Positions 41,080-63,148 of a stretch of DNA of 64,000 nucleotides are shown here, piece after piece. The first letter of the stretch is position 1, and every line of letters begins with the position of its first letter. The notes beneath the pieces were generated by a model. The model was not told the origin of the DNA. It saw nothing but the letters and a program-made list of their open reading frames with translations, and ran no database searches. Both the position numbers and the translations under genes were made by a program. Source of the stretch: an uncultured Roseburia sp. (GTDB taxonomy: Bacteria > Bacillota > Clostridia > Lachnospirales > Lachnospiraceae); NCBI GenBank assembly GCA_947642555.1, contig CANRSX010000005.1, forward strand, positions 62,001 to 126,000. The letters run 5' to 3'.

Positions 41080-42273
41080 TCACCAGTCGCACAGACTCCC
41101 GTCCGCCGGACGCCTGCACACCGGAATATATGCCCGTTTGTACGGGTAACGCTTCGCGGCCTCCTCGTCGATGTCGCAGCCGATGCCCGGCTTATCCTCC
41201 ATCGTCAGGTAGCCGTCTTTATAGACCGGTCCTCCCTTTACGACCTCCTTTACCGTGTCGTCCACCGTGCCGTCCTCCTGGATGCCGAAATTGTACGACG
41301 ACACATTTAAGTGCCAGTTCACCGCGTGCGTGACCGGAGAGACGTCGTTCGGCCCGTGCCACGCCGTCTTCACATCATAGGTCTCCGCGATGGCGCCGAT
41401 CTTTTTCGCCTCGGTGATCCCGCCGATGCGGATTAAGTCGCAACGGATAAAGTCAAGCCACCGGTTTGTGATCCCCGGCAGGCACTCCCAGCGACTTTTG
41501 TAGAGCTCGCCGAAGGCGATGGGCACATGGGTGTGATCCCGCACCGTCTTTAAGCTCTCCGGGCAGTCCGGGGCGATCGGATCCTCGATAAAAAACGGGT
41601 TGTACGGCTCTAATTTCCGCATGATATAAATCGCCCGCTCCGGCGCAAACCGCTCATGCAGGTCATAGATGATGCCGACCTGGTCGCCGACGGTCTTTCG
41701 TATTTTAATAAAATAATTCACCATCTCATCTGCCCAGAACTCGGGATCCCAGTCCTCGATCTTCGGCGTATTCTGAATCTCCTCCGACCCGAGCGTGCCG
41801 TTTGCGGAGGGAAGTCCGGCACGAAGGCGGATTACCTTTAACCCTCTCTCCTTCACAAAATTCGCGGCTTTTTCGATCTTCTCCTCATTGGTCTTTCCGA
41901 GCACGTGCGAATAGCAGAGCACCTTGTCGCGCAGCTTCCCGCCGAGCAGCGAATACAGCGGCATCCCCGCCAGCTTCGCCTTGATGTCCCACAGCGCCAT
42001 GTCGATCCCGCAGAGCGCGCTCATGCTGATATTGCCGCCTCTCCAGTAGGTTCCGCGGTAGATGAGCTGCCAGATCTCCTCGATCCGGTCCGTGTCCATG
42101 CCGATTAACATCGGGCGCAGATATTCTAAGGTCAGATCCTCGACCGCCTTCTCGCGCCCGTTCATGGAGGCGTCCCCGATCCCGTAAATGTCCGGATCCT
42201 CGGTCAGTATTTTGATAAACAGATAATTCTGCTTCGGGCAGGTCAGAATCGTTTTTACATCCGTAATTTTCAT
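41080..42273 (-). CDS. ManD/RspA-type sugar acid dehydratase (enolase superfamily)
   Basis: This 397-residue enolase-superfamily enzyme has metal ligands at Asp 204 (YDLHERF), Glu 230 (FFIEDP) and Glu 256 (FGELY). The motif WHGPNDVSPV (His 306, Asp 310) and the C-terminal RAYIPVCRRPADGSLCDW block are typical of the mannonate/gluconate dehydratase ManD/RspA group. It would dehydrate D-mannonate or a related sugar acid to a 2-keto-3-deoxy acid. Members of this group differ widely in efficiency and true substrate. It is the last gene of the long run and sits 13 bases after a GH10-like gene. A second, unrelated mannonate dehydratase is encoded at 52877. Confidence 0.88.
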   Translation of the reverse strand: MKITDVKTILTCPKQNYLFIKILTEDPDIYGIGDASMNGREKAVEDLTLEYLRPMLIGMDTDRIEEIWQLIYRGTYWRGGNISMSALCGIDMALWDIKAKLAGMPLYSLLGGKLRDKVLCYSHVLGKTNEEKIEKAANFVKERGLKVIRLRAGLPSANGTLGSEEIQNTPKIEDWDPEFWADEMVNYFIKIRKTVGDQVGIIYDLHERFAPERAIYIMRKLEPYNPFFIEDPIAPDCPESLKTVRDHTHVPIAFGELYKSRWECLPGITNRWLDFIRCDLIRIGGITEAKKIGAIAETYDVKTAWHGPNDVSPVTHAVNWHLNVSSYNFGIQEDGTVDDTVKEVVKGGPVYKDGYLTMEDKPGIGCDIDEEAAKRYPYKRAYIPVCRRPADGSLCDW

Positions 42274-42286
42274 AATTTCACTCCTT

Positions 42287-43954
42287 TTAAAGCTCCCATT
42301 TTTCCTTCAGCTCCTTCAGCTGGTAATACATCGGCTTCGGCCGGTCGTCAAAGTCCATCATGCCGTCAAATGCGAATGCGCCCAGCTTAAATTTTTCGTT
42401 GATATGCCCCTCCAGATAATCCGCCCACTGGGTCGGCGCGTCGCTGTAGCTCCAGACATTCATGACCTCCACGTAGTCCAGCGAATAGAAGAGCGTCGCA
42501 AAATCGCGGTACCACTGCGCCTGGATCTGCGGATCCCAGGGCGCGTGCCAGTAGTTCGGGTTCGCCGGGGAGGGGCGTAATCCCATGCGGATCGGCGATT
42601 TTCCCATGGCGGAGGGCGTGCAGATCTCCGTCAGCTGAATAGGCAGGTGATAGCGCTCATGCCACCACGCAAGAAGCTCCATCGTGTTAAACAGCTCGTA
42701 CGGAAAATCGTGAAACTGCAGCCCTAAGGCGTCGATCTGCATCCCGTGCTTTGTGCAGTAGTCGATAAATTCCGGGATGGAACAGCAGTACTCGTTCGGC
42801 GGGGAGAGGGGCAGCTTGTACTGCTTTTTAAACGCGATAAAATCCTCATTGCGGTTGACATCCATACCGTACTTGTTCTGCCACTCGTCGTAAAAATTGA
42901 TCATGATCCGCGTCTTCGGCGAGAGCCGTTTTACCACGTCATAGACATCCTTCACGATCTGAAAATGTTCTTCCATCGTGAAATTGTACGGGTTCTGCTG
43001 CAGCGGCTCGTTAAAATCAATGCACTCAAAGGCATTCGGCCGCGCCCCGAAGATCAGCTCCGCACGTTCGATCTCCAGCCGCCGGATCTCCTCATAGGAA
43101 AGGCTTCCCATCCAGTTTTCGTGCTCCCACCAGGGGCAGAACCAGACCAGCGCGTGTCCCCGCACCGCGATCCCGTTTTCCGTACACCAGTCGAGCATGT
43201 CAAACATCACGTCATAGTGCGTCTCCCCCCGGTAAGGCTCAAAGACGCCCCAGTGCGTGGGAATCGTGCCCTGGCCGAACAGCTCCTTAAAATTCTCCCG
43301 GAACGGCTCTCCCCCGTCGGTAAAGCCCTTTAGGCAGCAGCCGAAGGTAAAACGATCCCTCTTCCCGCGCCGCTCAATGGTGTGGTTCGCGTGGAAGAGC
43401 ACGAGTTCCTCGCCCGCCCAGAGCAGGTCGGCGAAAGCGGCCTCCTCCGCGGCAGCGCTGCTTTGTGCGCCCGGGCAGCCGCCGGCAGCGGCTTCCGTAT
43501 CCCGGCTGTCTGAGGCAGCACACCCGGCATCACCGGCTTTGGCAGCCGGGCAGCCTCCGGCACCCTCTCTCTTGTAATCCTCGCCTGTAGTTCCAAGAAA
43601 CCTCCGCACCGCCGCAAGCCGTTCCGTCGTCCGCTTCGGCAGATACCCCCACTCCTTCTTAGCCATCGCCGCGTACCGCTCCACGCTGCACAGCCGGCTT
43701 TCCATGCATGCCCGGCGCAGGTCAAGAGGCGTGTCGGAGGGAGGATAGCCCTCACCGCCGTTGTCCGCAAAGATCATGGTGCCGCCGAAGCCTTTTACCA
43801 GAAACTGCGTGTAAAACACCGCGCGCGAAAGCTCCGTCTCAAAGACCCACACGTCCCCCTGCTCCTTCGGGAAGCATTTGACCGGATTCCGGTTCACATC
43901 GTAAAGCACGCAGGCGCCGAGCACGTTTTCCTGCTTTTTTACCACATAACGCAT
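42287..43954 (-). CDS. Cytosolic GH10-like hydrolase, paralog 1
   Basis: This 555-residue protein has an N-terminal domain (about 1-110; LYDVNRNPVKCFPKEQGD, GFGGTMIFADNGGEGYPPSD) and a GH10-like barrel. GHALVWF (267-273) parallels GHTLVWH of xylanases. CIDFNEPLQQNP has the acid/base Glu at 316, and PIQLTEICTPS the nucleophile Glu at 443. It has no signal peptide, so it acts on imported oligosaccharides. The classical TPENEMKW segment is replaced by IPTHWGVFEP, so this is a divergent clade and xylan specificity is not assured. A unique Ala/Gly/Cys-rich insert occupies about residues 125-172. GGGGGTGA precedes the ATG at 43954; a longer frame exists. Confidence 0.82.
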   Translation of the reverse strand: MRYVVKKQENVLGACVLYDVNRNPVKCFPKEQGDVWVFETELSRAVFYTQFLVKGFGGTMIFADNGGEGYPPSDTPLDLRRACMESRLCSVERYAAMAKKEWGYLPKRTTERLAAVRRFLGTTGEDYKREGAGGCPAAKAGDAGCAASDSRDTEAAAGGCPGAQSSAAAEEAAFADLLWAGEELVLFHANHTIERRGKRDRFTFGCCLKGFTDGGEPFRENFKELFGQGTIPTHWGVFEPYRGETHYDVMFDMLDWCTENGIAVRGHALVWFCPWWEHENWMGSLSYEEIRRLEIERAELIFGARPNAFECIDFNEPLQQNPYNFTMEEHFQIVKDVYDVVKRLSPKTRIMINFYDEWQNKYGMDVNRNEDFIAFKKQYKLPLSPPNEYCCSIPEFIDYCTKHGMQIDALGLQFHDFPYELFNTMELLAWWHERYHLPIQLTEICTPSAMGKSPIRMGLRPSPANPNYWHAPWDPQIQAQWYRDFATLFYSLDYVEVMNVWSYSDAPTQWADYLEGHINEKFKLGAFAFDGMMDFDDRPKPMYYQLKELKEKWEL

Positions 43955-44006: not shown

Positions 44007-45596
44007 TCACTTTGTCTCCTGCCCGCCGGCCGCCCGTATTGAGAGCTTCCTTCCGGTCGCCAGGTTCCACGCCTCCGCCATCTCCCGCAGCGCGTAATAC
44101 GCCGGCTTCGGCACATTATTCACGTCCAGGATCCCGTCAAAGTCAAACGCCTGGAGGCGGAATTTCTCATTGGGATGCCCTGCTAAAAATTCCCCCCACT
44201 GGGTCGGCGCGTCCGATATACTCCAGCAGGTTAAGCCGGTCACGCAGTCCGTGCTGTAAAAATACGTCGCGAAATCCCGGTACCACTCCTCCTGAAGCCG
44301 CTCGTCCCAGGGCCTGCGCCAGTATTTATCCAGCGGAACCGGCCGGTTTCCCATATGAAACGCCGTCTTTCCGGTCTTTGAGGGCGTGGAGACCTCGGTC
44401 AGCTGGATCGGCAGATGATAGCGGCCGCTCCACCACTCGATCAGCTCCATCGTGTCAAACAGGTCGTAAAAGCCGTCGTGGAACTGAAGCCCCAGGACAT
44501 CCACCTGTATCCCCTCTTCCTTACAGCGGTCTAAAAACATCGGGACCGTGACGCAGTAACGGTTCGGCACGGAATCCGGCAGCCCGTAGCTCTTCTTCCA
44601 CTCTCTCGCCGCCGGGATGTCGTTTTCGCTAAATCCGTAGTTTCCCTGCCACTCGTCATAAAAATTGATCATCAGCTTCGTGTTCGGCGAATATGTCCGG
44701 ATGACCTCGTACACTTCCTTACAGATCTCAACATGCTGGTCAAACGTAAAATTAAACGGATTGCTCTGCAGCGGCTCGTTAAAATCTACGCTTGTAAACG
44801 CATTCGGACGGCTGGAGAGAATATATTTCGCGCGGTCCACGACAAGCTTTTTAAAGCCCTCATAATCCTCCCTGCCATAGCGTCCCATCCAGTTTTTTCC
44901 CTCCCACCAGTCGGAAAACCAGACGAGCGCATGGCCGCGCACCGGGATGTGGTGTTCGGTACACCAGTCGAGCATGTCAAAGATCACGTCGTAGTGCTGC
45001 TCCCCCTCGTACGGCTCCACACAGCCCCAGTGGGTCGGGATCACGGCCTCGCCGAACACGTCCAGGAAGCAGTTTTTGAAATGATCCCCGCCGTCCGTAA
45101 AGCCCTTCATGCAGCCGACAAAGGAAAAATCGTCCCGGTTGCCGCGCTTTCCGATCTTAATCTGGGAATCCAGCAGCACCGCCTTCTCCCCCGCCCACAG
45201 GATCTTTGCGAGGGCGGCTTCCACAGCCGCCTCCCGAAGCAGCGTCTCCGCCTCCCGAAGCAGCCATGCCGGTTCCGCAGGGACAAACCCGTGCTTTGCC
45301 TCAAACCGCCCGAGGTATTTCTTCACGCGGTGCAGGCGGCTCTTCGTGCCCTCCAGCAGGAAATCCCGCACCGTATCGGAGGGCTCATAGCCCGCCTCCT
45401 CGTTGTCCGCGAACAGCACCGCGGATCCAAAGCCCGGCACATCCAGCTTTGACATGAAAACCGCGCGTGGCAGCACCGCCTCAAAGGAGATGACGTCCCC
45501 CTCGTGCACTCCGAATTCCTTTACCGGGTTGCGCTCCAGATCATACATCACATAGGTGCCAAGTCTCGTATTGATTTTTTTCCATAAATATTTCAT
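44007..45596 (-). CDS. Cytosolic GH10-like hydrolase, paralog 2
   Basis: This 529-residue paralog has the same N-terminal domain (MYDLERNPVKEFGVHEGD) and GH10-like barrel: GHALVWFSDWW (221-231), SVDFNEPLQSNP with Glu 274, and PIQLTEVSTPS with Glu 401. No export signal is present. It lacks the low-complexity insert of paralog 1. It follows the two permeases of the second importer and lies about 50 bases before paralog 1, suggesting that the two act on different fragments of the same imported material. The family resemblance is to endo-xylanases, but the altered substrate loops leave exo-action or another beta-glycan open. Confidence 0.82.
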   Translation of the reverse strand: MKYLWKKINTRLGTYVMYDLERNPVKEFGVHEGDVISFEAVLPRAVFMSKLDVPGFGSAVLFADNEEAGYEPSDTVRDFLLEGTKSRLHRVKKYLGRFEAKHGFVPAEPAWLLREAETLLREAAVEAALAKILWAGEKAVLLDSQIKIGKRGNRDDFSFVGCMKGFTDGGDHFKNCFLDVFGEAVIPTHWGCVEPYEGEQHYDVIFDMLDWCTEHHIPVRGHALVWFSDWWEGKNWMGRYGREDYEGFKKLVVDRAKYILSSRPNAFTSVDFNEPLQSNPFNFTFDQHVEICKEVYEVIRTYSPNTKLMINFYDEWQGNYGFSENDIPAAREWKKSYGLPDSVPNRYCVTVPMFLDRCKEEGIQVDVLGLQFHDGFYDLFDTMELIEWWSGRYHLPIQLTEVSTPSKTGKTAFHMGNRPVPLDKYWRRPWDERLQEEWYRDFATYFYSTDCVTGLTCWSISDAPTQWGEFLAGHPNEKFRLQAFDFDGILDVNNVPKPAYYALREMAEAWNLATGRKLSIRAAGGQETK

Positions 45597-45633: not shown

Positions 45634-46545
45634 TCATTTCAGCCCCGACGTCACGATCCCCTGCACAAAGTATTTCTGCGCCGCGAAAAAGACGACCAGG
45701 ATCGGCATCATAACCACAAGTGTCGCCGCCATCAGAAGCGGCCAGTCGACAATCCCAAGCTCGTTAAACTGCTGCAGCCCGATCTGCACCGTATACATGT
45801 CCTTCGAATTCGTCATGATCAGCGGATAGAAAAATTCGTTCCAGGTATAGGTGAATTTCAGTATGACAAACGTCGCGAACACCGTCTTGCTCTGCGGCAG
45901 ATAAATCGACGCGAACAGCTGGAAATTATTGCACCCGTCGATGCGCGCCGCGTCGTCTAACGACCGCGGGAAGGTCAGGTAAAACTGGCGGCAGAGAAAA
46001 ATCCCCAGAGGCGCCGCCGTAAACGGGATAATGAGCGCCCAGTAGGTGCCGAGCAGTCCCGTTCCCCCGGCTCCCGTGATATCGTTTCCCCCGAGCAGCG
46101 GAATGGAACGCAGCATGATATACTGCGGGATGATATACGCCTGTGCCGGGATCATAATGCCCGCCATAAACATCATAAAAATCGCCGTGTTTCCCTTAAA
46201 TTTCAGCCGCGCAAACGAAAATCCCGCGAGCGAGCTGATAAAGGTGCTTAAAAGCACCACCATTAACGTGACAAACCCGGAATTTAAGAAATACCGGAAC
46301 CAGTTATTTCTGGCAAAGCAGTCCACAAAATTGTGAAACTGCGGCACCTTCGGGAAGAACCGGAAGGTGGCCGTCAGCGTCTCCTTCTGCTCCTTTAACG
46401 CGGTGAGTATCATGATAAACAGCGGGAAAAAGGAGAATGCCACCACGATCACAAGAAACAGCACGATCATGACGCGGATGATGCGCCTTCTGATTTTATA
46501 CATCCGGACGGATCTAACGTCCACTTCTTTCGTCTTACTGGTCAA
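45634..46545 (-). CDS. ABC sugar importer permease, MalG type (second importer)
   Basis: This permease of about 303 residues has six membrane helices, the EAA loop DDAARIDGCNNFQLFASIYLP and the QGIVTSGLK tail. The start overlaps the end of the upstream permease. A TTG at 46545 is best placed eight bases after GGAGG; a GTG at 46554 is the alternative. It works with the permease and binding lipoprotein encoded upstream. Confidence 0.9.
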   Translation of the reverse strand: MTSKTKEVDVRSVRMYKIRRRIIRVMIVLFLVIVVAFSFFPLFIMILTALKEQKETLTATFRFFPKVPQFHNFVDCFARNNWFRYFLNSGFVTLMVVLLSTFISSLAGFSFARLKFKGNTAIFMMFMAGIMIPAQAYIIPQYIMLRSIPLLGGNDITGAGGTGLLGTYWALIIPFTAAPLGIFLCRQFYLTFPRSLDDAARIDGCNNFQLFASIYLPQSKTVFATFVILKFTYTWNEFFYPLIMTNSKDMYTVQIGLQQFNELGIVDWPLLMAATLVVMMPILVVFFAAQKYFVQGIVTSGLK

Positions 46546-47416
46546 CCTCAGCACCTCCGTTCCTGTTTCCGTACCGGAACAATAGCAGCGTGATCGTCAT
46601 GGACGTCGCCAGAAGCACCACCGAGATCGCGGAGGCATAGCCCATCTTCCATCCGACAAACGCCTGCATGTAGATCTGATGCACCAGCGTGGTCGTCCGG
46701 TAGGCAGGACCGCCGCTGGTCATGTTGTACACCTGGCCGAACACCTGGAAGGACGACATGATCGTCATGATCAGGATCAGGTACGTGGTCGGCGCGAGCA
46801 TGGGAACGCTGATCTTAAAAAACTGCTGGAGCTTTGACGCGCCGTCGATCGTGGCCGCCTCGTAGAGATCGGGCGGCACGGACTGAAAGCCCGCCAGATA
46901 CATGACCATGCAGTATCCCACCCCCTGCCAGACCGACATGACGATCAGGCACGGCATCACGAGCTTCATGTTGTCCAGCCACAGCTGCTGCTTTAAGCCC
47001 AAAAATGACATGATAGAATTTAACAGCCCGTTCGGGTTATAGATATACAGCCAGATCATGGATGCCGCGACGACGGAAACCGTATAAGGGATATAGATAA
47101 TCGTTCGGAAAATTTTGCTTCCCCGCAGCCATTTTTCATTCAGAAACGCCGCGATGATCAGGCCGAGCACCACATTGATTGCCACCACAAAAAAGGTGTA
47201 TTCCGCTGTATTGACAAAGGCACGCTTGAACGCGACATCTGTAAACAGCTTTTTATAATTTGCCAGTCCCACAAAACTCTTTGATACCAGATTATAATCC
47301 GTAAAACTGTACGAGAGGGAAATCGCCAGCGGGATGATAATAAACGTAAACGATACGAGAAAAGCAGGTAAAATGAAAAGATAGGGACCGATGCGAAAAC
47401 GTTTCTTTTTGTTCAT
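46535..47416 (-). CDS. ABC sugar importer permease, MalF type (second importer)
   Basis: This 293-residue permease begins MNKKKRFRIGPYLFILPAFL and has about six helices and an EAA loop YEAATIDGASKLQQFFKISVP. AAGGAGGAG precedes the ATG at 47416. It overlaps the following permease and lies about 100 bases after the binding-protein gene. Confidence 0.92.
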   Translation of the reverse strand: MNKKKRFRIGPYLFILPAFLVSFTFIIIPLAISLSYSFTDYNLVSKSFVGLANYKKLFTDVAFKRAFVNTAEYTFFVVAINVVLGLIIAAFLNEKWLRGSKIFRTIIYIPYTVSVVAASMIWLYIYNPNGLLNSIMSFLGLKQQLWLDNMKLVMPCLIVMSVWQGVGYCMVMYLAGFQSVPPDLYEAATIDGASKLQQFFKISVPMLAPTTYLILIMTIMSSFQVFGQVYNMTSGGPAYRTTTLVHQIYMQAFVGWKMGYASAISVVLLATSMTITLLLFRYGNRNGGAEVDQ

Positions 47417-47518: not shown

Positions 47519-48886
47519 TTAATTCGCCGTGCGCTCCTCGTCGTAGAGCCGGATGATCTCATCGATACACTCCTGCGGCGTCAGCTCGCCGACAAACATC
47601 CGGCTGAACGTCGGGTTTAAGCAGGTGTCGCGCAGATAGACAAAATCATAGTTGGACACGCCGTACATGCGCGCCTTCGGCAGCATCTCAAGAAGCACTG
47701 CGTTAAAGTCGGGATCCATGGCCAGGTAATCCGCCTCGGTCGACTTTCTCGTCGGCACATAGCCCACGAGCTCCGCGTTTTTCATCATCGCCTCCGCGCT
47801 GGTGATCACCTTCCACGCCTCGATCGCCTCCGCCTCATGCTTTGTCGCGTTGTTGATCACGATAAAGGATCCGTACGTACCGGTTAAATCTCCCGGAGGG
47901 CAGGCATACCCCACGTTCTCCCAGTCCATATTTTCCTTCATGTTAATCACGTTATTACAGGAATCATTTAAGGACATCGCAGCCATCCCGTTTACGAAAA
48001 ACGATCCGGAAATATCAAAGGAATCGATGGATCCGCAGATCTTGTTCTGGATGATGTCATTGTACATCTCCACACACTTCACCACCTCCGGCTCGTTTAA
48101 GCGCAGATTGAACTCGTCATCCCAGATGCTGTCCACGCCCTCGATGTTCATAAACGCCCACAGCGGCTGGTCGCAGGAACCGGCAGTCGCCACCTGGAAG
48201 CCTGCCTGCTCCGTGATGCCGTCCTCGTTGACCACGGTCAGCTTCTCGGCATACTCATAGATCTCCTCCAAGGTCTGGGGCGGTGACTCCGGATCTAAGC
48301 CCGCAGCCTCAAATAAATCCTTCCGCCAGAAATACGGGCGGAGCTCCGGGAAGAGCACGCCGACAAATTCGCCGTCCACTCTGCCGTTCTCGATCATGTT
48401 CGGGTAGATGTCATCCCATCCGTCCCAGCCGTCTAACTTGTCGTCAAGACGCATAAAATTGTGCTCCGTCGTGTCAAAGTTCGCTAACATCAGGCATCCG
48501 CAGGCCAGGATATCAGGACCCGTTCCGCCTGCCAGCGAGACGCTGATCTTGGTGGGATACTCGCTCCAGGCGATCGGCGTCACTTCCATATCGATGTTCG
48601 GGCAATTTGCCTCCACAGACTCCTCGATATAGTCGCACCAGGCCTCGGCCTTGCTGTCGCTGCCGCCCCACCACATGGTGATCTTCACCTTCTCGCCGGA
48701 AGATGCGCCGTCATCCGCCGGCGTCTCATCCCCGCCGGTCCCGGCGTCGCTGCCGCCCGCTTCCGCGCTGCTGCCGCTGTCCGCTCCGCCGCTGTCATCG
48801 CCGGTGCCGCCACCGCCTCCGCATGCCGCAAACATACCGACTAACATCGTCGCCGTTAACAATGCCGCTAATACTCGTCTCTTCAT
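47519..48886 (-). CDS. ABC sugar-binding lipoprotein (second importer)
   Basis: This family 1 solute-binding protein has 455 residues, a lipoprotein signal (MKRRVLAALLTATMLVGMFA, then AC with Cys 22) and a Gly/Ser/Asp linker. The binding domain starts KVKITMWWGGSDSKAEAW. AAGGAGGAGG precedes the ATG at 48886; a longer frame to 48949 is rejected. It supplies the permeases encoded downstream and belongs to the GH10-containing run, so its ligand is probably the oligosaccharide cut by those enzymes. Confidence 0.9.
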   Translation of the reverse strand: MKRRVLAALLTATMLVGMFAACGGGGGTGDDSGGADSGSSAEAGGSDAGTGGDETPADDGASSGEKVKITMWWGGSDSKAEAWCDYIEESVEANCPNIDMEVTPIAWSEYPTKISVSLAGGTGPDILACGCLMLANFDTTEHNFMRLDDKLDGWDGWDDIYPNMIENGRVDGEFVGVLFPELRPYFWRKDLFEAAGLDPESPPQTLEEIYEYAEKLTVVNEDGITEQAGFQVATAGSCDQPLWAFMNIEGVDSIWDDEFNLRLNEPEVVKCVEMYNDIIQNKICGSIDSFDISGSFFVNGMAAMSLNDSCNNVINMKENMDWENVGYACPPGDLTGTYGSFIVINNATKHEAEAIEAWKVITSAEAMMKNAELVGYVPTRKSTEADYLAMDPDFNAVLLEMLPKARMYGVSNYDFVYLRDTCLNPTFSRMFVGELTPQECIDEIIRLYDEERTAN

Positions 48887-48948: not shown

Positions 48949-49812
48949 TTACACAAACCCGTCCCGCACCGCTTTGATGCAGGCGCAGTTGTCCTCCATG
49001 CCATAACCCATGTCGATCGTCTTTTTTAACGCCGCCAGGGACACGTCGATCCCCGGCATCGGGAAGCCGTGGCTTACGCTTAAGCGCTTGCAGATGCTTA
49101 AATCCTTCTCCGCGTAGATCACCGGGAACTGGCAGGTGAAATCGTCGTGAATCAGCGCGTCCGCCTTGCTCTCCAGGTAATAATTCTGCGCCCCGCCGAT
49201 GCGGATCGCCTCGATAAACTGCTCTGTCTTTATCCCGCAGATATTGGCCAGGGTCAGGGTCTCGTTCACCGCGTTCTGAATCTCGTGGGTCAGCGCGTTC
49301 TGGCAGATTTTCATCGTGATCCCCGCGCCATTTTCCCCCATGCGCATCACATGCTCTCCCATATAGGAGAGGATGGGTTTTAAAACTTCAAACGTCTCCT
49401 CATCACAGCCCGCGTAAATGCCGAGCTTTCCGGCCATGGCCATATACTTTGACTTAAGCACCGGGCAGTCCGCGAATTTCGCCCCGGTCTCCTTCACTTT
49501 CTCCGCGATCTCCATGGACACCGGCGGATCGATGGTGCTCATGTCCACGCAGATTTTTCCTTCCCCGATCACCGGAAGCATCTCCTCCCAGGCCGCCTTT
49601 ACGTGCTCCGAGCGCGGCAGCATGGTGATGATGATGTCCGCGTTCTGCGCAACCGCCGTCGCGCTGCCGCATGGAACCGCGCCCTGCTCCGCCAGAAGAT
49701 CCACCTTCTCCTGCTGTAAATCATAGACGTACACGCTGTCATCGTGCTTCTTTAAAATGTTAAGGCTCATGCCCTCGCCCATATTGCCAAGGCCGATAAA
49801 ACCGATTTTCAT
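48949..49812 (-). CDS. NAD(P)-dependent beta-hydroxyacid dehydrogenase
   Basis: This 287-residue protein of the 3-hydroxyisobutyrate dehydrogenase/tartronate semialdehyde reductase family has the Rossmann motif GFIGLGNMGEGM (GxGxxG 7-12) and the catalytic Lys 168 in GAGITMKICQNAL. The normal substrate loop DxPVSGG is changed to DCPVLKSKYMAMAG, so the substrate may differ from the named relatives. Its ATG overlaps the stop of GH10 paralog 3 (ATGA), which implies coupled expression and a sugar-acid role. Confidence 0.85.
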   Translation of the reverse strand: MKIGFIGLGNMGEGMSLNILKKHDDSVYVYDLQQEKVDLLAEQGAVPCGSATAVAQNADIIITMLPRSEHVKAAWEEMLPVIGEGKICVDMSTIDPPVSMEIAEKVKETGAKFADCPVLKSKYMAMAGKLGIYAGCDEETFEVLKPILSYMGEHVMRMGENGAGITMKICQNALTHEIQNAVNETLTLANICGIKTEQFIEAIRIGGAQNYYLESKADALIHDDFTCQFPVIYAEKDLSICKRLSVSHGFPMPGIDVSLAALKKTIDMGYGMEDNCACIKAVRDGFV

Positions 49813-54861: not shown

Positions 54862-55659
54862 TTACGGCTGCTTTCCGATGTAAGCCAGGATCCCGCCGTC
54901 CACGTACAGCACATGGCCGTTGACAAAATCAGATGCGTCGGAGGCTAAGAATACCGCCGGGCCCATCAGATCCTCCGGGTTCCCCCAGCGCGCCGCAGGG
55001 GTCTTTGCGATGATAAACTGGTCAAAGGGGTGACGGGAGCCGTCCGGCTGCTTCTCCCGAAGCGGGGCCGTCTGCGGCGTCGCGATATAGCCCGGCCCGA
55101 TGCCGTTGCACTGGATGTTGTGCTCGCCGAACTCGGAGCAGATATTTCTCGTCAGCATCTTAAGGCCGCCCTTGGCCGCCGCGTAGGCAGATACCGTCTC
55201 CCGCCCCAGCTCGCTCATCATGGAGCAGATGTTGATGATCTTCCCGTGCCCTTTTTCGATCATGCCGGGGATTACCGCCTTTGAGACGATAAACGGCGCG
55301 TTTAAGTCCACATCGATCACCTTGCGGAATTCCTCCGCGCTCATCTCGCACATCGGGATCCGGCGGATGATGCCCGCATTGTTGACTAAGATGTCAACGC
55401 CGCCGAATTTTTCCGCGATCGTCTTCGTAAAGGCTGCCACCGCCGTCTCGTCCGTCACATCGCAGACCTCGCCGTAGGCATCGATCCCCAGCTCTTTATA
55501 GGAAGCGAGGCCCTTGTCCACCAGCTCCTGATTGATATCGTTAAAAATGATCTTCGCGCCCGCCTCGTGAAACGCCGTCGCGATCGCAAACCCGATGCCG
55601 TAGGACGCGCCTGTCACCCATGCTGTTTTTCCTTTTAAACTAAATTTGTCTAATATCAT
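54862..55659 (-). CDS. Short-chain dehydrogenase 2, gluconate 5-dehydrogenase-like
   Basis: This 265-residue SDR has TGASYGIG (16-23), NNAG (93-96), Ser 146, Tyr 159 and Lys 163 (YAAAK). The pattern KGKTAWVTGASYGIGFAIA and C-terminal SDFVNGHVLYVDGGILAYIG match gluconate 5-dehydrogenases (IdnO-like). It would interconvert 5-keto-gluconate and gluconate, or do related chemistry. The preceding gene is an L-idonate-dehydrogenase-like zinc enzyme, the natural partner in the L-idonate pathway. Confidence 0.85.
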   Translation of the reverse strand: MILDKFSLKGKTAWVTGASYGIGFAIATAFHEAGAKIIFNDINQELVDKGLASYKELGIDAYGEVCDVTDETAVAAFTKTIAEKFGGVDILVNNAGIIRRIPMCEMSAEEFRKVIDVDLNAPFIVSKAVIPGMIEKGHGKIINICSMMSELGRETVSAYAAAKGGLKMLTRNICSEFGEHNIQCNGIGPGYIATPQTAPLREKQPDGSRHPFDQFIIAKTPAARWGNPEDLMGPAVFLASDASDFVNGHVLYVDGGILAYIGKQP

Positions 55660-55728: not shown

Positions 55729-56742
55729 TCAGAACCGGATCACCGTCTTCACCGTCGACGCGGCGTCGCTTAAGGTATCCGTAAATGCCTGCTGGATCTC
55801 CTCTGCGGGATAGCTCTTTGTCACCATGCCCGCGGTGTCAAGGCAGCCGCTCTCCAGCCATTCCACCACCTTCGGGAACATCCCGTTGTTCATGCGCGAG
55901 CCCACCAGTGTCAGCTCTTTTTTCGTGATCACCACCGGCTGCAGCTGCATCGGTTTCCCGTCAAACCCGATCACCGCGACCCGCGCCGTGGGGGCCGCCA
56001 GGTTTACGGTCTGCTCCGTTAAGGGCGCGATTCCCACCGCATCGATTAAGACATCCGCGCCGCCCGGCGCAAATTCCTCCGCCTTCCCGGCCAGATCCTC
56101 CGTCTTACTGTTTACCGTCACATCCGCGCCGAATTTCTTCGCGATGGCAAGCTTCGTATCCTCCACATCGGAGATCAGCACCGAAGCGCCCATCCCCTTT
56201 GCCGCCTGTAAGATCGCCAGGCCGATGGTGCCCGCGCCAAGAATCACGATGCGGTCCTCCTTCGTCGCGGCAGTCCTGGTCAGAATATTCGCCGCCACCG
56301 AGAAGGGCTCCGCCAGCGCGGCCTCCTCAAACGGGATTTCTTCCGGGATGCGGTAGAGCTTTGCCGCCTCCACCACGATGTAATCCTGAAATCCGCCGTC
56401 CATCTGCACGCCGAAGCATTTCACATCCGCGCAGACATTGGCGTGACCGCTTCTGCACACCTTGCAGATCCCGCAGGAGACCACCGGATCAAACACCACA
56501 TGATCCCCTTCCTTTATATGCGTAACGCCCGACCCCACCGATTCGACGATCCCGGACAGCTCATGCCCCATGACTCTCGGCAGCGCCACGTCGCTCCGCT
56601 CTCCTTTGAAAATATGAAGATCCGTCCCGCAGATCCCCACGGCTTTTACCCTGACCCGGGCCTCCCCCGCTTCCGGCTCCCGGATCATCGGCTCGTCGAA
56701 CAGTTCGATAGTCTCCGGCGCTGTTAATTTTGCAGCTCTCAC
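55729..56742 (-). CDS. Zinc alcohol dehydrogenase, L-idonate/sorbitol dehydrogenase-like
   Basis: This 337-residue medium-chain dehydrogenase has catalytic zinc residues Cys 38 (GICGTD) and His 60/Glu 61 (GHE). The four structural cysteines are 90, 93, 96 and 104, and the NAD motif GAGTIG is at 169-174. Relatives oxidise polyols or L-idonate. The start is a GTG at 56742 after GGGAG. It is transcribed before the IdnO-like SDR, which supports an idonate or other 5-keto-acid route. A 105-base gap upstream may hold a secondary promoter. Confidence 0.87.
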   Translation of the reverse strand: MRAAKLTAPETIELFDEPMIREPEAGEARVRVKAVGICGTDLHIFKGERSDVALPRVMGHELSGIVESVGSGVTHIKEGDHVVFDPVVSCGICKVCRSGHANVCADVKCFGVQMDGGFQDYIVVEAAKLYRIPEEIPFEEAALAEPFSVAANILTRTAATKEDRIVILGAGTIGLAILQAAKGMGASVLISDVEDTKLAIAKKFGADVTVNSKTEDLAGKAEEFAPGGADVLIDAVGIAPLTEQTVNLAAPTARVAVIGFDGKPMQLQPVVITKKELTLVGSRMNNGMFPKVVEWLESGCLDTAGMVTKSYPAEEIQQAFTDTLSDAASTVKTVIRF

Positions 56743-56847: not shown

Positions 56848-58425
56848 TCAGCCGGTCTCATCGGGATGAGCCCTGCCGGTCTTAAGCCCCCACTGCTCCG
56901 CCAGCCCGCAGAGCGTGTGATACGCCGGCTTCGGCCGGTTTTCCTCATCCAGCAGTCCGTCGTAGCAGTAGGCCTGGAGCCGGAACATCTCGTTCACATG
57001 GCCCTCCAGGTAATCCGCCCACTGTCTCGGCTCGTCGGATAAGCTCCAGGACACACAGCACTCCACGTAGTCCAGGCTGTAAAACAGCGTCACAAAATCG
57101 TGATACCACTGCGCCTGCAGCCACTCGTCCCAGGGTCTGTGCCAGTAGGCCGTCACCGGCCCGGGACGCCTGCGCATCGCATACGGCGTCTGCTCCATCG
57201 AGGAGGGCGCGGATACCTCGGTCAGGTGTATCGGAAGGCCCCATTTCTGATGCCAGAACTCCAGCAGCTGCATCGTGCCAAAAAGCTCATAAGGATAATC
57301 GTGCATCTGTAACCCCAGCACATCCACCACCAGGCCTTCCTCCCTGCATTTTTGCAGAAAATCATCCACCGACCACACATATTCCATTTCCGGGGCAAAT
57401 CCAGGCAGCCCGATCGCGGCTCTTGCCGTCACGTTTTCCTCAAATTTGTTCGGGTCGAAGGAGCATTTTTCCTGCCATTCGTTGCAGAGGTTCACCATGA
57501 TCTTCGTCTGCGGCGACCATTTTTTCACCACGTCATACACATCCTTACAGATGGCGAAAAACTGATCCAGTGTGAAATTATAAGGGTTGTTCTGCAGCGG
57601 CTCGTTGATGTCCACATAGTCAAACCCATTGGGACGGGCGCGCATCAGCATCTCCGCACGGCGCACCACATGCTCCCGCACCTCGGGGAACGTCATGTCC
57701 CGCATCCAGCTCTGCCCCTCCCAGAAGCAGCAGAACCAGACCAGCGCGTGTCCCCGCACCGTGATCCCATGCTCCTTACACCAGTCGAGCATCGCGAGGA
57801 CAAGATCGTAATGGGTCTCCCCCCGGACCGGCTCCAGGCACCCCCAGTGCAGGGGGATCACCCCGTGGCCAAAGGGTTTTACAAAGGCCTCCCGCCAGGT
57901 TTCCCCGCCGTCCGTAAAGCCCTTCATGCATCCGCCGAGACAGAAATTGTCACGAAGGCCCCGGGCTGCGGTCTTATTTTCCGCGGCAAGAAGCACCATC
58001 GCCTCCCCCGCCTTTAAGATCTCACAGAGCGCTTTCCCGGCGGGTGCCGTCTCACCCTGCGCCGCCAGCAGCTCCTCCGCCGCCCTCAGCCGGTCCGCCG
58101 GCTCCTTTGGCCGATACCCGAAGCTTTGCCGGAAATTCTCCATATAGTCCCGTACCTCCCGCAGCCTGGTCTTCGCCGCCTCATACAGGAAATCCCGCGG
58201 GATATCGTCGGGCAGATACCCCATTCCCCCGTTGTCTGCAAAGAGGTACGCCCCTCCGAAGCCGGGGATCATGACCTTCGTGAGAAAGACCGCCCGGGGG
58301 ATCACAGCGGGAAAGCAGAAATCCCTCTCCCGCCGGATCGTCTCCACCCGGACCGGCCGCTTTTCCAGGTTGTACATGGCAAAGGTGCAGAGCAGATTTT
58401 CCTCACATGCCTTCCATCGATACAT
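56848..58425 (-). CDS. Cytosolic GH10-like hydrolase, paralog 4
   Basis: This 525-residue paralog is the most divergent of the four: N-terminal domain MYNLEKRPVRVETIRRERD, barrel motifs GHALVWFCCFW (225-235), YVDINEPLQNNP with Glu 275 and PIHLTEVSAPS with Glu 403. No signal peptide is seen. Its ATG lies one base after the stop of aldo-keto reductase 2. It belongs to the part of the run fed by the Lpl-type importer, whereas paralogs 1-2 are next to the second importer. Confidence 0.82.
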   Translation of the reverse strand: MYRWKACEENLLCTFAMYNLEKRPVRVETIRRERDFCFPAVIPRAVFLTKVMIPGFGGAYLFADNGGMGYLPDDIPRDFLYEAAKTRLREVRDYMENFRQSFGYRPKEPADRLRAAEELLAAQGETAPAGKALCEILKAGEAMVLLAAENKTAARGLRDNFCLGGCMKGFTDGGETWREAFVKPFGHGVIPLHWGCLEPVRGETHYDLVLAMLDWCKEHGITVRGHALVWFCCFWEGQSWMRDMTFPEVREHVVRRAEMLMRARPNGFDYVDINEPLQNNPYNFTLDQFFAICKDVYDVVKKWSPQTKIMVNLCNEWQEKCSFDPNKFEENVTARAAIGLPGFAPEMEYVWSVDDFLQKCREEGLVVDVLGLQMHDYPYELFGTMQLLEFWHQKWGLPIHLTEVSAPSSMEQTPYAMRRRPGPVTAYWHRPWDEWLQAQWYHDFVTLFYSLDYVECCVSWSLSDEPRQWADYLEGHVNEMFRLQAYCYDGLLDEENRPKPAYHTLCGLAEQWGLKTGRAHPDETG

Positions 58426-58426
58426 C

Positions 58427-59419
58427 CTAAGCCTCCTTCAGGATCCGGTCGATCTCCTCCATCTGTCTTTTGGTGAGGGCCCCGAATTCCATGGCCTTTA
58501 CATTGTCCGCCACCTGCTTTTCCGTCTTAAAGCCAGGAATCGGGATCGTACATCCGCTGCGCGCCCACAGCCAGCCGAGAGCGCCCTGAGCCGGCGTGCG
58601 CCCGCCCTCCGTTAAGATCTCACGGATCGCTTCCACCCTTGTTAAGAATTCCGGCGCTGGTTTTCCGTCCTTAAAAAACTTCATGTACTCCGGCGCGTTT
58701 TTTCCGCGGATATCGTTGTCCTTTAAGGTCGTATCCGTTTTAAACTTCCCGGTCAGCATCCCCATGGCGAGCGGCGCGCGGTTAAAGCCCGCAAGTCCGT
58801 ATTCCTCGCACAGGGCGATCATTTCCGCATTGTCCTCAAAAATATTTTCACTGTACTGAATCACGTTGCAGTGTGCGCCGGGCGCGAACACCCGGGCCTT
58901 CTCCACTTCATCCGTCGACCAGCCGTAGGTCCTGATTTTTCCCTCGGCGACGAGAGCTTCTAAGGTCTCCCGGATCTCCGCCGTGTCGTCCTTGTCTACA
59001 AAGGGCACATGTAAAAAGTAGACGTCCAGATAATCCGTCCCCAGCCGCTTCAGCGATCCCTCCAGCGACTCTCTGATGTAGGAAGGACTGACATCCCATC
59101 CCAGCTTCGTCCGCGTGGCCGGATCAAACACCCAGCCGAATTTTGACGAGAGCACCACTTTATCTCTCCTGCCCTTTATCACCTGCCCGATCAGGCTCTC
59201 GCTGTGGCCTGTCCCGTACATATTCGAGGTGTCAAAGAGCGTGATGCCCATGTCGATCGCAGCGTTTAACCCGGCGATGGAATTCTCATCCTTCACGTCG
59301 CCCCAGCCGATGGGCGTGCCGTCCTTCTCAAAGGCAGGGCCGCCGATGGCCCAGCAGCCGATGCCCATGGCGCTGACCTCAATTCCTGATTTTCCAATTA
59401 CCCGTTTTTCGATACTCAT
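58427..59419 (-). CDS. Aldo-keto reductase 2
   Basis: This 330-residue AKR has the full tetrad Asp 63, Tyr 68 (LFDTSNMYGTG), Lys 93 (SSKFG) and His 137 (YFLHVP). The N terminus RVIGKSGIEVSAMGIGCWAI and C-terminal CTIPIPGFKTEKQV are common in sugar- or aldehyde-active AKRs. It is only distantly related to AKR 1 in the same run. It follows the binding-lipoprotein gene by 19 bases and precedes GH10 paralog 4 by one base. The substrate is unknown. Confidence 0.88.
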   Translation of the reverse strand: MSIEKRVIGKSGIEVSAMGIGCWAIGGPAFEKDGTPIGWGDVKDENSIAGLNAAIDMGITLFDTSNMYGTGHSESLIGQVIKGRRDKVVLSSKFGWVFDPATRTKLGWDVSPSYIRESLEGSLKRLGTDYLDVYFLHVPFVDKDDTAEIRETLEALVAEGKIRTYGWSTDEVEKARVFAPGAHCNVIQYSENIFEDNAEMIALCEEYGLAGFNRAPLAMGMLTGKFKTDTTLKDNDIRGKNAPEYMKFFKDGKPAPEFLTRVEAIREILTEGGRTPAQGALGWLWARSGCTIPIPGFKTEKQVADNVKAMEFGALTKRQMEEIDRILKEA

Positions 59420-59437: not shown

Positions 59438-61162
59438 CTACTGCATGTCCTTGTAGCGGTCGTACGCGGTCTGATACATCGACACATATTCCTCAAGACC
59501 GATCCCGTTTAACGAGCTGATGTAGGAATCCCAGTCCGCATCGATATCGGATTCGCCCGCGATCCAGCGCGCCGTCATCTGTAAAATCTGATCTTTGATC
59601 CCGCTCTGGATGGAGGTTAAGGTCTCCGTTTCCTCATCCGTAAACATCAGTGACTGCGGCAGCGTCTCCTTCGCCGCGTAATCGTCAAAGGTACGGCACA
59701 GCGCCGATTTTGCCATGTTGTTCGGATTTCCTAAAAAGATGTTGTTCTGCGCCATGTAGGACACGTCATGAATCACGTACGCGGTGGTCGCCAGCGTCCA
59801 TTTATGACGGTATTCGCCAAATGTCATGTCTTCCGGTGATCCGGTCCAGTACTCTAACGCTCCGTCGTCATTGTAGTGCAGGTTGTAGTCGTTCTCATCG
59901 TCCGCAATCATACCGAAGGACGCCTGGATCGTCATCTCATCGCTGCTGTTCATAAAATCAAGCCATGCGATCACCAGCTCCGGATTTTCACATTCGCTGG
60001 TCACCCAGAAATTATTGCTGCTGACGCCACAGGTACTGCTCTTCCACATCGCCGCGTCATACCCCTCCGCCGCCGGGTAGGGGATCGCCACATAGTCTTC
60101 CGCATAGGCGCTGCCGACATAGTTCGTCGCGTTCCAGCCCCACAGGACGCCGATCCGCTCCACGTCCGCGGAACCTTTTGCGGTCAGCTGGGTCTCGCCC
60201 TGGGTGAAGGTCTCGTTGTCCAGCAGTCCCTTTTCGTAGAGATCCGCGAAATATTTGCAGGCTTCCTTCCAGTTCTCCGTGGTCGCGGCGCACTTCACTT
60301 CCCCGTTTTCCGCGATCAGCGCATTCATATCCGGCGCGATGCCGAACATGCCGAACGCGTTAAAGAAGGAATAATCCTGCTTGGAAAAATCGCCGATACA
60401 GGACATCGGGATCTCGTCCGCCTGCCCGTTTCCGTTTGGATCCTGCTCCTTAAATGCCGTCAGAACCTCCGTCAGCTCCTCCGTTGTCGTCGGAACCTCA
60501 AGCCCCAGGTCATCCAGCCACTTCTGATTGATATACATAAAGCAACTGATGTCGTTTCCGTCATTTTCGTATCTGGGCAGCGCATAGATATGTCCGTCCA
60601 GGGAGGTCGCAGCTGCTTTTACCTGCGGATACTGCTCGAATTTCTGCATAATATGCGGCGCATATTCCTCTAACAGCCCGTCGATCGGGATGATCATCTC
60701 GTCCTGCACATAGCCCGCCAGGGTGCTGCCGTCAAGACCGTAGCAGGTCATATAGGCGTCCGCTAAGTTTCCGCTGGCAAAATCAAGGTTGATCTTCTCA
60801 TCCCAGCTGGTCTCCGGGTAGATCGTCCAGTTTACATGTACATTTGTCTTTTCTTCCATCATCTGCACAAACGGCATCTCGTCAAAATCCGTCGTGTGGA
60901 GCGTCCTGGCCTGCGCGCAGATATTGATCTCCTGCTTCTCCTCTAACGGGAACTGGATCCCGCCGGTCGTCGTCCCGCCGCCCTGGCTTTCCGTGCCCTC
61001 CGCCGCGCTGCCGCCGGCATCCGCTCCCGCGTCCGTATCGGCATCTGCTGCCGGCGTGTCATCAGCCGGTGTGTCCGCCCCTGCATCCTTACCCCCGCAT
61101 GCCGCGGCCGGCAGTACCATCGCTGCCGCAAGCATCATCGCAAGCACTCTTCTTTTTTTCAT
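59438..61162 (-). CDS. LplA/LipO-type ABC sugar-binding lipoprotein
   Basis: This 574-residue binding lipoprotein is longer than the family 1 proteins in this window. It has a signal MKKRRVLAMMLAAAMVLPAA then AC (Cys 22), an Asp/Ala/Gly linker, and a large binding domain starting EEKQEINICAQARTLHTTDF. Size and permease partners fit the LplA/LipO group that imports oligosaccharides. GGAGG precedes the ATG at 61162. Confidence 0.9.
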   Translation of the reverse strand: MKKRRVLAMMLAAAMVLPAAACGGKDAGADTPADDTPAADADTDAGADAGGSAAEGTESQGGGTTTGGIQFPLEEKQEINICAQARTLHTTDFDEMPFVQMMEEKTNVHVNWTIYPETSWDEKINLDFASGNLADAYMTCYGLDGSTLAGYVQDEMIIPIDGLLEEYAPHIMQKFEQYPQVKAAATSLDGHIYALPRYENDGNDISCFMYINQKWLDDLGLEVPTTTEELTEVLTAFKEQDPNGNGQADEIPMSCIGDFSKQDYSFFNAFGMFGIAPDMNALIAENGEVKCAATTENWKEACKYFADLYEKGLLDNETFTQGETQLTAKGSADVERIGVLWGWNATNYVGSAYAEDYVAIPYPAAEGYDAAMWKSSTCGVSSNNFWVTSECENPELVIAWLDFMNSSDEMTIQASFGMIADDENDYNLHYNDDGALEYWTGSPEDMTFGEYRHKWTLATTAYVIHDVSYMAQNNIFLGNPNNMAKSALCRTFDDYAAKETLPQSLMFTDEETETLTSIQSGIKDQILQMTARWIAGESDIDADWDSYISSLNGIGLEEYVSMYQTAYDRYKDMQ

Positions 61163-61326
61163 AAAATACCTCCGTTTCCGGGCGGGCGGTTCCTTCAGGG
61201 CCCGCCTCTCTTCCCGTGTCATCTGCGGGGAGCGCCATATTGGCCCGCCTCCCCCGCGCCTATAGTTTCGTGTTTCCTATCCGGCAGCTTTCCGCCGCCT
61301 GCCAGGCAGCTTTTTGCCGCCCGCCA

Positions 61327-62220
61327 TCAGCCCTTCACCGACCCGATCATGATCCCCTTCACAAAATACTTCTGCACAAAGGGGTACAGGATCAGCATGG
61401 GCAGACTTGCCACTATAATGGATGAATACTTCACCAGCTCCGCGATCCGCTGCATCGCCGCGACGCTCTCCGCGTCCCCGAAGGCGCCGGAGCTGTTCAT
61501 CTGCGCCTGAATTAAAATGTCCTTTAACACGACCTGAAGCGGGAATTTATCCTTTGTATTTAAGTAGATCATCGCGTCAAAGTACGAATTCCACTGCTGA
61601 ATCGCGTAAAATAAAATCATGATTGCAATAATCGCCTTCGAGAGCGGCAGCGCGATCTGAAAAAAATATTTCAGATTCGTCACACCGTCCACCCTCGCCG
61701 CGTCCAGAAGCTCCTCTGACATCGTCCCCTCAAAAAACGTCCGGCAGACGATCAGGTTGAACACGGACAGGCAGGTCGGCAGGATCACCGCCCACATGGT
61801 ATCCAGAAGCGTTAACTCCTTCACCACCAGATAGGTTGGCACCAGCCCGCCCTGGAAATACATGACAAACACGAAAAACAGGGTGGCGGCTTTTCGCATC
61901 GGCAGATCGCGCCTGGAGAGCGCATAGCCCGCCGGGACCGTGATGCAGACAGCAATCACCGTCCACACCAGCGTGTAAATCACGGAATTTTTATATCCGT
62001 TTAAGATATTCGCATTCGTTAAAATGTGCTGGTACGCGTCCAGGTTAAATCCCTTCGGCCACAGGAGCACTTTCCCGGAATTCACCAGGTTCGGGTCGCT
62101 GACCGAGGCGATGGCCACAAAAAACAGCGGGTATAAAATGATCAGAAACACAATCGCCATCAGCACCGTATTGACAATATCAAACACTTTATCCGGATCG
62201 TATCGTTTCACCCGGTTCAT
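61327..62220 (-). CDS. ABC permease, LplC/YtcP type
   Basis: This 297-residue permease begins MNRVKRYDPDKVFDIVNTVL and has about six helices. It has the EAA-like loop LLDAARVDGVTNLKYFFQIALP and the family tail KGIMIGSVKG. GGGGG precedes the ATG at 62220. It acts with the LplB-type permease upstream and the large lipoprotein downstream. No ATPase is encoded nearby. Confidence 0.9.
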   Translation of the reverse strand: MNRVKRYDPDKVFDIVNTVLMAIVFLIILYPLFFVAIASVSDPNLVNSGKVLLWPKGFNLDAYQHILTNANILNGYKNSVIYTLVWTVIAVCITVPAGYALSRRDLPMRKAATLFFVFVMYFQGGLVPTYLVVKELTLLDTMWAVILPTCLSVFNLIVCRTFFEGTMSEELLDAARVDGVTNLKYFFQIALPLSKAIIAIMILFYAIQQWNSYFDAMIYLNTKDKFPLQVVLKDILIQAQMNSSGAFGDAESVAAMQRIAELVKYSSIIVASLPMLILYPFVQKYFVKGIMIGSVKG

Positions 62221-62248
62221 ATCAATTCCCCCTTTCACCGGCCATTTG

Positions 62249-63148
62249 TTACCACAGGCTGTTGCCGCTGGCCTTCTTTGACACGCGGTTTACGATGACA
62301 AGCAGGATAAAGTTGATCACCGTGTTAAACAGATTCACCGCCGTCGAAAAATCGTAGCGCGCCTGCTGGAGCCCGAGTTTGTAGACGTATGTAGAAATAA
62401 TCTCGGAGCTCGACAGGTTTAACGCGTTCTGCATCAGGTACACCTTCTCATAGCCGATATTCATGATCTGTCCGAGCTGCATGATCAGAAGGATCAGCAT
62501 CGTGGGCAGAAGGGCCGGAATATCGATATGCAGGATCGACTGGAACTTGGTCGCCCCGTCGATGCGCGCCGCCTCGTAAATCTCCGGGCTCACATTCGAG
62601 AGGGCCGCGATGTAGATCACCGCGTTGTACCCCATCGTCTGCCAGACGGCGGATCCCACATATAATGGAATAAAGCAGGACGCCTTTCCCATAAAGTTGA
62701 CGCTTTCCACTCCAAGCTTCCCGAGGATCAGGTTTACAAGCCCCGAATCCATGGAAAAGAAATTGTAGAGCATTCCCACCAGCACTACGGTCGAGATAAA
62801 GTAGGGCGCGTAGCTGACCGTCTGGAGCACCTTCTGAAACCGCGTCCGCAGCCGGTTTAAAAACAGGGCGAACAGAAACGGAATCGGAAAGGAAAAAATC
62901 AGCATCGCAAGGCTTAATGCCAGCGTGTTCCCGAGTACCTCCCAGAAATTGTAGGACTGGAAAAACATGATAAAATGCTTTAATCCGACCCAGCTGCTCC
63001 CCCAGATCCCTTTTTTCGCGGAAAAGTTTTTAAATGCGATCTGAATCCCTGCGATCGGCCAGTACCGGAAGATGATCACCTGGATGACCGCCGGTATCAG
63101 TAAGATATACAGGTCGAGATTCCTCCACCGCTTCTTTTTTGTTCTCAT
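62249..63148 (-). CDS. ABC permease, LplB type
   Basis: This 299-residue permease begins MRTKKKRWRNLDLYILLIPA and has about six helices. It has the LplB motif RYWPIAGIQIAFKNFSAKKG and an EAA loop YEAARIDGATKFQSILHIDIP. The ATG at 63148 is preceded by GAAGGAG at a rather long distance; a start at 63223 lacks a site. It is the first gene of the 19-gene run, with a promoter at 63272-63300. Confidence 0.9.
   Translation of the reverse strand: MRTKKKRWRNLDLYILLIPAVIQVIIFRYWPIAGIQIAFKNFSAKKGIWGSSWVGLKHFIMFFQSYNFWEVLGNTLALSLAMLIFSFPIPFLFALFLNRLRTRFQKVLQTVSYAPYFISTVVLVGMLYNFFSMDSGLVNLILGKLGVESVNFMGKASCFIPLYVGSAVWQTMGYNAVIYIAALSNVSPEIYEAARIDGATKFQSILHIDIPALLPTMLILLIMQLGQIMNIGYEKVYLMQNALNLSSSEIISTYVYKLGLQQARYDFSTAVNLFNTVINFILLVIVNRVSKKASGNSLW

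Follow-up and report, generated by a model that had tools for sequence, protein, structure and literature searches.

ATP-binding cassette (ABC) importers paired with intracellular enzymes of glycoside hydrolase family 10 (GH10) have been described previously. The xynA2/agu cluster of Geobacillus T-6 carries an intracellular GH10 together with importer and uronate genes (PMC4194401), the aldouronate cluster of Paenibacillus JDR-2 carries an importer, an intracellular GH10, GH67, and GH43 (PMC4765114), and a cytosolic GH10 is known from Butyrivibrio proteoclasticus (PMC5217386). The present study concerns a run of 19 colinear genes, with four GH10-type proteins, two importers, and a set of sugar-acid and redox enzymes, in a 64-kb stretch of one contig of an uncultured Roseburia sp. 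(CANRSX010000005.1, positions 62,001 to 126,000; hereafter, the window). The source genome comprises 4.99 Mb in 88 contigs and is 96.1% complete. The original prediction, made from the letters of the window, was aware of no published pathway that combines these genes. The architecture of importer and cytosolic GH10 is already known from the three organisms above; it is the GH10 clade, its N-terminal domain, and the oxidoreductase suite that set the run apart. For the combination of an importer, an intracellular GH10, and these oxidoreductases, and likewise for such divergent intracellular GH10 proteins, we found no matching description among the open-access papers searched, subscription papers lying outside this search.

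The Geobacillus and Paenibacillus clusters share with our run the ABC importer and the intracellular GH10, and the Geobacillus cluster also pairs GH10 with uronate-type metabolism in the same locus. However, both carry a GH67 alpha-glucuronidase and beta-xylosidases, whereas the run holds no GH43 gene and the Roseburia genome no GH67 match. The four GH10 paralogs on a branch of their own, their unmatched N-terminal domain, and the many redox genes are further differences. In other words, of the parts of an aldouronate utilization cluster, the run has the importer and the intracellular GH10 and lacks GH67. With moderate confidence, we read the run as a catabolic island of the import-and-cut type, whose substrate would be a small beta-linked oligosaccharide or glycoside and whose products would be acid sugars. 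Its gene content is compatible with import, cytosolic cutting, and sugar-acid processing, and it probably represents a real, undescribed way of using some sugar chain.

A gene run shared by two genera

The run is a real, conserved island that is rare among the sampled genomes. When GTDB species contigs were scanned with GH10c, one of the four paralogs, one locus came up, in the metagenome-assembled genome SUG177, a Lachnospiraceae bacterium of the same family as the source and of a different genus (the scan may omit the source genome itself). Fifteen of the 19 genes have counterparts in a single SUG177 cluster in nearly the same order, namely those for the Zn dehydrogenase, SDR1, SDR2, AKR2, the UxuA-like protein, AKR1, RbsD, GH10c, the HIBADH-type dehydrogenase, SBP1, two permeases, GH10b, GH10a, and the ManD-like protein (named as in the list below), interspersed with an IclR regulator, a lactonase, and an M24 peptidase. 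The 15 pairs are 66 to 92% identical, with 0.72 to 0.91 synonymous differences per site and nonsynonymous-to-synonymous ratios (pN/pS) of 0.06 to 0.26, which are crude values, the synonymous sites being saturated or nearly so. The near-colinear recurrence of 15 genes whose amino-acid changes are strongly suppressed takes the run beyond chance and indicates that importer 1, three GH10 proteins, and the redox set have been kept together. Thus, the matching run in a second Lachnospiraceae genus makes a real catabolic route probable.

The genes of the run, all on the minus strand from 63223 to 41080, are given below in their order of transcription, followed by a divergent regulator.

62249..63148, minus: importer 2 permease, LplB type by eye; longest open reading frame (ORF) starts at 63223
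61327..62238, minus: importer 2 permease, LplC/YtcP type by eye; profile matches
59438..61162, minus: SBP2, lipoprotein solute-binding protein (SBP) of importer 2, LplA type by eye; longest ORF starts at 61222
58427..59419, minus: AKR2, aldo-keto reductase (AKR), 66% identical to its SUG177 counterpart
56848..58425, minus: GH10d, 525 aa, E275/E403; Pfam GH10, without SUG177 ortholog
55729..56742, minus: Zn-dependent medium-chain dehydrogenase, RspB-like; PRK10083 at 293.7 bits, below the cut-off of 376; nearest solved structure 4ilk, RspB
54862..55659, minus: SDR1, short-chain dehydrogenase (SDR) of putative gluconate 5-dehydrogenase/DhuD type; PRK07097 at 501.3 bits, cut-off 369
53941..54750, minus: SDR2, SDR; longest ORF starts at 54861
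52877..53926, minus: TIM-barrel protein of the UxuA superfamily; start shifted inward from 53938 in line with SUG177
51831..52826, minus: AKR1, YdjG-like AKR; 340.8 bits against a cut-off of 550
51404..51811, minus: RbsD/FucU-family sugar mutarotase-like protein; RbsD model 44.4 bits and FucU model 20.2 bits, both below cut-off
49809..51350, minus: GH10c, 513 aa, E274/E401; Pfam GH10, Asn at the His205 equivalent
48949..49812, minus: beta-hydroxyacid dehydrogenase of HIBADH/tartronate-semialdehyde-reductase type; profile matches
47519..48886, minus: SBP1, lipoprotein SBP of importer 1; start set inside the longest ORF (48949) on the evidence of ribosome-binding site and signal sequence
46535..47416, minus: CUT1-type permease of importer 1, UgpA-like; profile matches
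45634..46554, minus: CUT1-type permease of importer 1, UgpE-like; profile matches
44007..45596, minus: GH10b, 529 aa, E274/E401; Pfam GH10, SUG177 ortholog 82% identical
42287..43954, minus: GH10a, 555 aa, E316/E443; Pfam GH10, catalytic pair computed
41080..42273, minus: ManD/RspA-like protein of the enolase superfamily (MR_MLE); PF13378/PF02746, nearest solved structure 3v3w (RspA), 92% identical to the SUG177 copy
63659..64000, plus: start of a divergent AraC-type regulator, 756 aa in full, reaching past the window edge

Intergenic gaps range from -20 to +105 bases with mostly longest starts and from -20 to +164 bases once five gene starts are moved inward, in agreement with the 19 colinear genes with short gaps or overlaps first reported. 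The run end given there, 63148, is the start used here; it falls at an ATG inside the last permease, whose longest ORF extends to 63223. Profile searches bore out the families assigned to the two importers, the mutarotase, both AKRs, both SDRs, the zinc dehydrogenase, and the beta-hydroxyacid dehydrogenase. A motif scan of window ORFs of at least 150 aa returned no ABC ATPase. Judged by its position only, the AraC-type regulator at 63659 likely controls the run.

No match to GH10c was present in the 59 other genomes of its genus that were sampled. With the source genome itself counted, matches were found in 4 of 98 genomes at an E value of 0.001, in 9 of 392 genomes of an order-level sample (profile, 1e-10), and in 23 of 398 genomes of a phylum sample (1e-15), where the listed matches other than its own start at profile position 139 at least. 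Three further genomes of the order sample (G231, G233, and G263) match into the N-terminal part. A fourth, G121, was rejected: its start at position 87 needs reading through three stop codons, and its ORF is a short GH10. In the family of G231, 2 of 38 genomes match at 1e-25. In G231 (L028:7793-10528), the long-N-terminal GH10 gene stands after a Gfo/Idh oxidoreductase gene and opposite importer and sensor genes (named by eye) and a short GH10. The UxuA-like protein has matches at 1e-30 in 10 of 397 family genomes, its own included; the SUG177 copy is 84% identical and eight others are 30 to 45% identical.

The source genome has one lactonase-family gene, without a BLAST match to the SUG177 lactonase. 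Furthermore, about 50 bases past the SUG177 ManD-like gene starts a sulfatase gene (PF00884 with SGSH_C, L049:11310-12812), free of an export signal by eye, of which the window run has no counterpart.

A separate GH10 branch without export signals

GH10a to GH10d score 33.6, 46.9, 36.7, and 38.4 bits against PF00331. These values are low, yet above the gathering threshold of 22.1, and the alignment covers only a short stretch in GH10a, GH10c, and GH10d; at an E value of 0.001 none of the four matched an NCBIfam model. The proteins have a (beta/alpha)8 barrel resembling solved GH10 structures. In a 32-row alignment, the acid/base and nucleophile glutamates stand at the GH10 family positions in all four, at residues identical to the catalytic pairs of the original prediction. 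By family, GH10a to GH10d would thus be retaining glycosidases. Their N-termini lack a signal-peptide-like hydrophobic stretch, the maximal Kyte-Doolittle hydropathy over 15 residues being 0.37 to 0.87 as compared with 2.25 to 2.31 in SBP1 and SBP2, and the four paralogs are therefore signal-less as first described.

In a tree of 32 rows of our own selection (catalytic part, 324 columns), the four window paralogs and three SUG177 proteins form one clade (support 100/100), whose branch has a length of 1.87 changes per column. The sister of this clade is a pair of intact GH10 proteins from the same order, also with a long N-terminus (95/88), and the next outward branch is one short row, G845 (85/83). 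The main group of 14 short GH10 proteins, which includes AcXyn10A, falls outside, as do a secreted pair and the classical xylanases; the rows labeled short are not monophyletic, and the deep branching order is uncertain because of several long branches. The tree places the seven proteins, within this selection, in a clade of their own, and the GH10 branch is new, small, and clearly bounded. GH10a, GH10b, and GH10c each have a one-to-one SUG177 ortholog; therefore, these paralogs arose earlier than the split between the two genomes and are no product of recent, redundant duplication. GH10a has an insert of about 42 residues, of low complexity and rich in Ala, Gly, and Ser, between N-terminal domain and barrel, which its SUG177 ortholog lacks.

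A substrate other than xylan is conceivable if doubtful: a beta-glycoside, a uronic-acid-containing exopolysaccharide, or a plant glycoside, for example, to which the clade would have adapted by a new specificity, so that it would rank as a further GH10 subfamily or as a GH family in its own right. Apart from the clade's own place in the tree, this reading draws on 36 positions invariant in the seven clade rows and absent from the other 25 (some of them where most others are gapped), on clade-only inserts, and on the first 157 residues, which fold confidently in silico into a domain whose predicted fold has no clear PDB match. GH10c and its SUG177 ortholog also carry Asn where GH10 usually has His205. 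However, the equivalents of H80, W84, N126, and Q203 are kept in all seven clade rows (these positions and His205 presumably being in Cex numbering). The ENxMK glycone motif of classical xylanases, which we take to be E43, N44, and K47 of Cex, is missing from all seven through a two-residue deletion and the replacement of Lys by His. As the xylanases of the AcXyn10A group likewise lack ENxMK, its loss does not by itself exclude xylan. AcXyn10A (PDB 8b73, titled beta-1,4-xylanase) is the nearest solved relative of the clade at 21 to 25% identity; its group has a short N-terminus in contrast to the 157-residue domain, and the clade forms a separate, strongly supported branch. Fsa02490Xyn, 40.8% identical to AcXyn10A, is an active endoxylanase whose further substrates include oat beta-glucan and gellan gum (PMC12485897), and this homolog can be cited for either substrate.

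An ordinary intracellular (glucurono)xylan or aldouronate locus appears unlikely. Here, intracellular xylanases would act together with conversion of glucuronate through mannonate to 2-keto-3-deoxygluconate (KDG), as in Geobacillus T-6 and Paenibacillus JDR-2. The precedents of an intracellular GH10 beside an importer (with uronate genes in Geobacillus), the xylanase title of AcXyn10A, and two UxaC-family genes elsewhere in the source genome are in its favor. However, GH67 gave no match in the source genome (controls positive in 4 of 14), which makes an ordinary glucuronoxylan locus less likely. Besides, the 12 GH43 stretches of the genome all lie outside the run, the clade stands on its long branch, and ENxMK is absent, with the reservation just made. 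The PF00331 search found neither a secreted GH10 nor any further convincing one in the genome, GH115, GH11, and other xylanase families lying outside that search. A fifth PF00331 match (23 bits) was set aside, as the whole protein scores 20.6 bits and DUF5597, GH42, and GH35 fit better.

Sugar-acid genes and the proposed route

SDR1, as a putative gluconate-5-dehydrogenase/DhuD-like SDR, is the best-supported sugar-acid call: it exceeds the cut-off of the gluconate 5-dehydrogenase model PRK07097 (NF005488), and its nearest solved chains are 3cxr, 4z9x, and 4u8g (gbs1891), the last of which presumably belongs to the streptococcal DhuD locus. Streptococcal DhuD converts DK-II to 2-keto-3-deoxy-D-gluconate (PMC12838403). 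The RspB-like identity of the Zn dehydrogenase is more weakly supported, and the RbsD/FucU, AKR, SDR2, and HIBADH calls are at superfamily level only. The same level holds for the two mannonate-dehydratase families named in the original prediction. The UxuA-like protein reaches 119.9 bits against PF03786 (gathering threshold 23.7), chiefly through its C-terminal half (best stretch, residues 176-347). The ManD-like protein has an RspA-type ManD as its best solved relative and keeps the D/E/E motifs, which we take to be the metal ligands of ManD. RspA and RspB, presumably a pair of E. coli, are thus the best solved matches of the enolase-superfamily protein and the Zn dehydrogenase, from which the run proteins differ in scoring below the ManD and PRK10083 cut-offs and in having Leu for the Tyr of the TYG motif. 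Therefore, "mannonate dehydratase" is a lead and no finding; naming such proteins xylanase or mannonate dehydratase on the strength of superfamily scores may well be inaccurate in detail.

For the catabolic island, we infer the co-regulation, the substrate class, and the following order of reactions. The two lipoprotein-fed CUT1 importers would take up the substrate, presumably with a shared ATPase, and the four GH10-type enzymes, as retaining glycosidases that each carry an N-terminal domain of their own, would cleave different bonds in the cytosol. The products would then pass through the mutarotase and the redox enzymes, where the AKRs may act at C1 and, to judge from their families, the RspB-like Zn dehydrogenase and SDR1 at C5. 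The enolase-superfamily protein, the UxuA-superfamily protein, or both could dehydrate the resulting acid to a 2-keto-3-deoxy acid, which would feed the lower Entner-Doudoroff route; one KDPG-aldolase-family gene is encoded elsewhere in the genome. A chemical template for these steps, with a C5 dehydrogenase, a second dehydrogenase, and a UxuA-type dehydratase, is the predicted route of Haemophilus influenzae from L-gulonate through fructuronate and mannonate to KDG (PMC5788505). However, that route has a TRAP transporter for the free acid, with no glycosidase named in the section describing it, whereas our run has ABC importers and GH10 proteins; its dehydratase is 73% identical to E. coli UxuA, whereas the run's protein resembles UxuA at superfamily level only. 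A bolder version is tentative: the seven-protein clade would have a specificity so far unseen among GH10 enzymes and a new N-terminal domain, the four paralogs would divide among them the linkages of a single, unusual oligosaccharide of acidic character, and a new acid-sugar route would follow, whose diverged dehydratase-like proteins use a substrate other than D-mannonate.

Several observations weigh against the catabolic island. Its acid-sugar end is uncertain because both dehydratase-like proteins have sub-cut-off scores and lack canonical residues. The ManD-like protein falls short of NF043051 (426.9 against 550 bits) and PRK15072 (411.3 against 430), and it has Leu161, in both genomes, for the Tyr of the TYG motif, which we take to be the catalytic Tyr159 of Novosphingobium ManD. 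Likewise, the UxuA-like protein fails TIGR00695 (51.7 against 199.55) and PRK03906 (94.3 against 191) and reads DHTP where the solved 1tz9 and 3ban have DHGR; the Zn dehydrogenase, too, misses its RspB/LgoD-type cut-off. A redox bypass for glucuronate would be superfluous beside the two UxaC-family genes of the genome. Furthermore, GH10d has no ortholog in the whole SUG177 genome, which holds only three such proteins, and importer 2 was not seen in the SUG177 cluster, to which that comparison was confined. Joints are up to 164 bases wide, so the run may not form a single transcript. Over 44001-64000, terminator-like sites are at chance (19, as against 18.6 in shuffles) and promoter-like sites above it (19, as against 11.1, sd 3.2, both strands), by which separate transcripts are possible.

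Adjoining and functionally separate operons, with importer 2, GH10d, and AKR2 as one unit and the redox genes serving another acid sugar, would account for the lack of importer 2 and GH10d in the SUG177 cluster, for several joints with gaps of 62 to 164 bases, and for AKR2, the least similar pair, standing elsewhere in the SUG177 order. Such a division is nonetheless improbable, as the remaining genes stay together in two genera despite differing single inserts (IclR, lactonase, and M24). The SUG177 sulfatase directly after ManD and the likeness of SDR1 to gbs1891 suggest a reading in which the substrate is sulfated or glycosaminoglycan-like and SDR1 acts as a DhuD-type reductase, which is very improbable given that the sulfatase occurs in one of the two clusters only, that no polysaccharide lyase or KduI/DhuI isomerase was recognized in either run, and that SDR1 fits gluconate 5-dehydrogenases equally well.

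On the whole, the original interpretation stands in its absence of export signals, its separate clade, and its shared run; its mannonate-dehydratase naming is borne out at superfamily level only, and its wording that no such pathway is described is too strong for the architecture. Because the run is conserved paralog by paralog within a fixed enzymatic neighborhood, its substrate is directly testable, and the SBPs, the four hydrolases, the SDR, and the Zn dehydrogenase each offer an independent assay.

Elsewhere in the same order, short AcXyn10A-type GH10 genes (L033:7173-11603 and L023) lie beside a GH94-like phosphorylase gene and a KDPG-aldolase-like gene, named by eye. These neighbors hint that short GH10 proteins of this type are tied to sugar-acid routes more widely. 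Downstream of the run in the window, ylxM/ffh-type housekeeping genes were recognized by eye from their translations. Also by eye, the far end (window positions 1-5833) holds two GH29-like fucosidase genes and a rhamnulokinase-like gene, and a rhamnose-isomerase-like sequence lies at the very edge.

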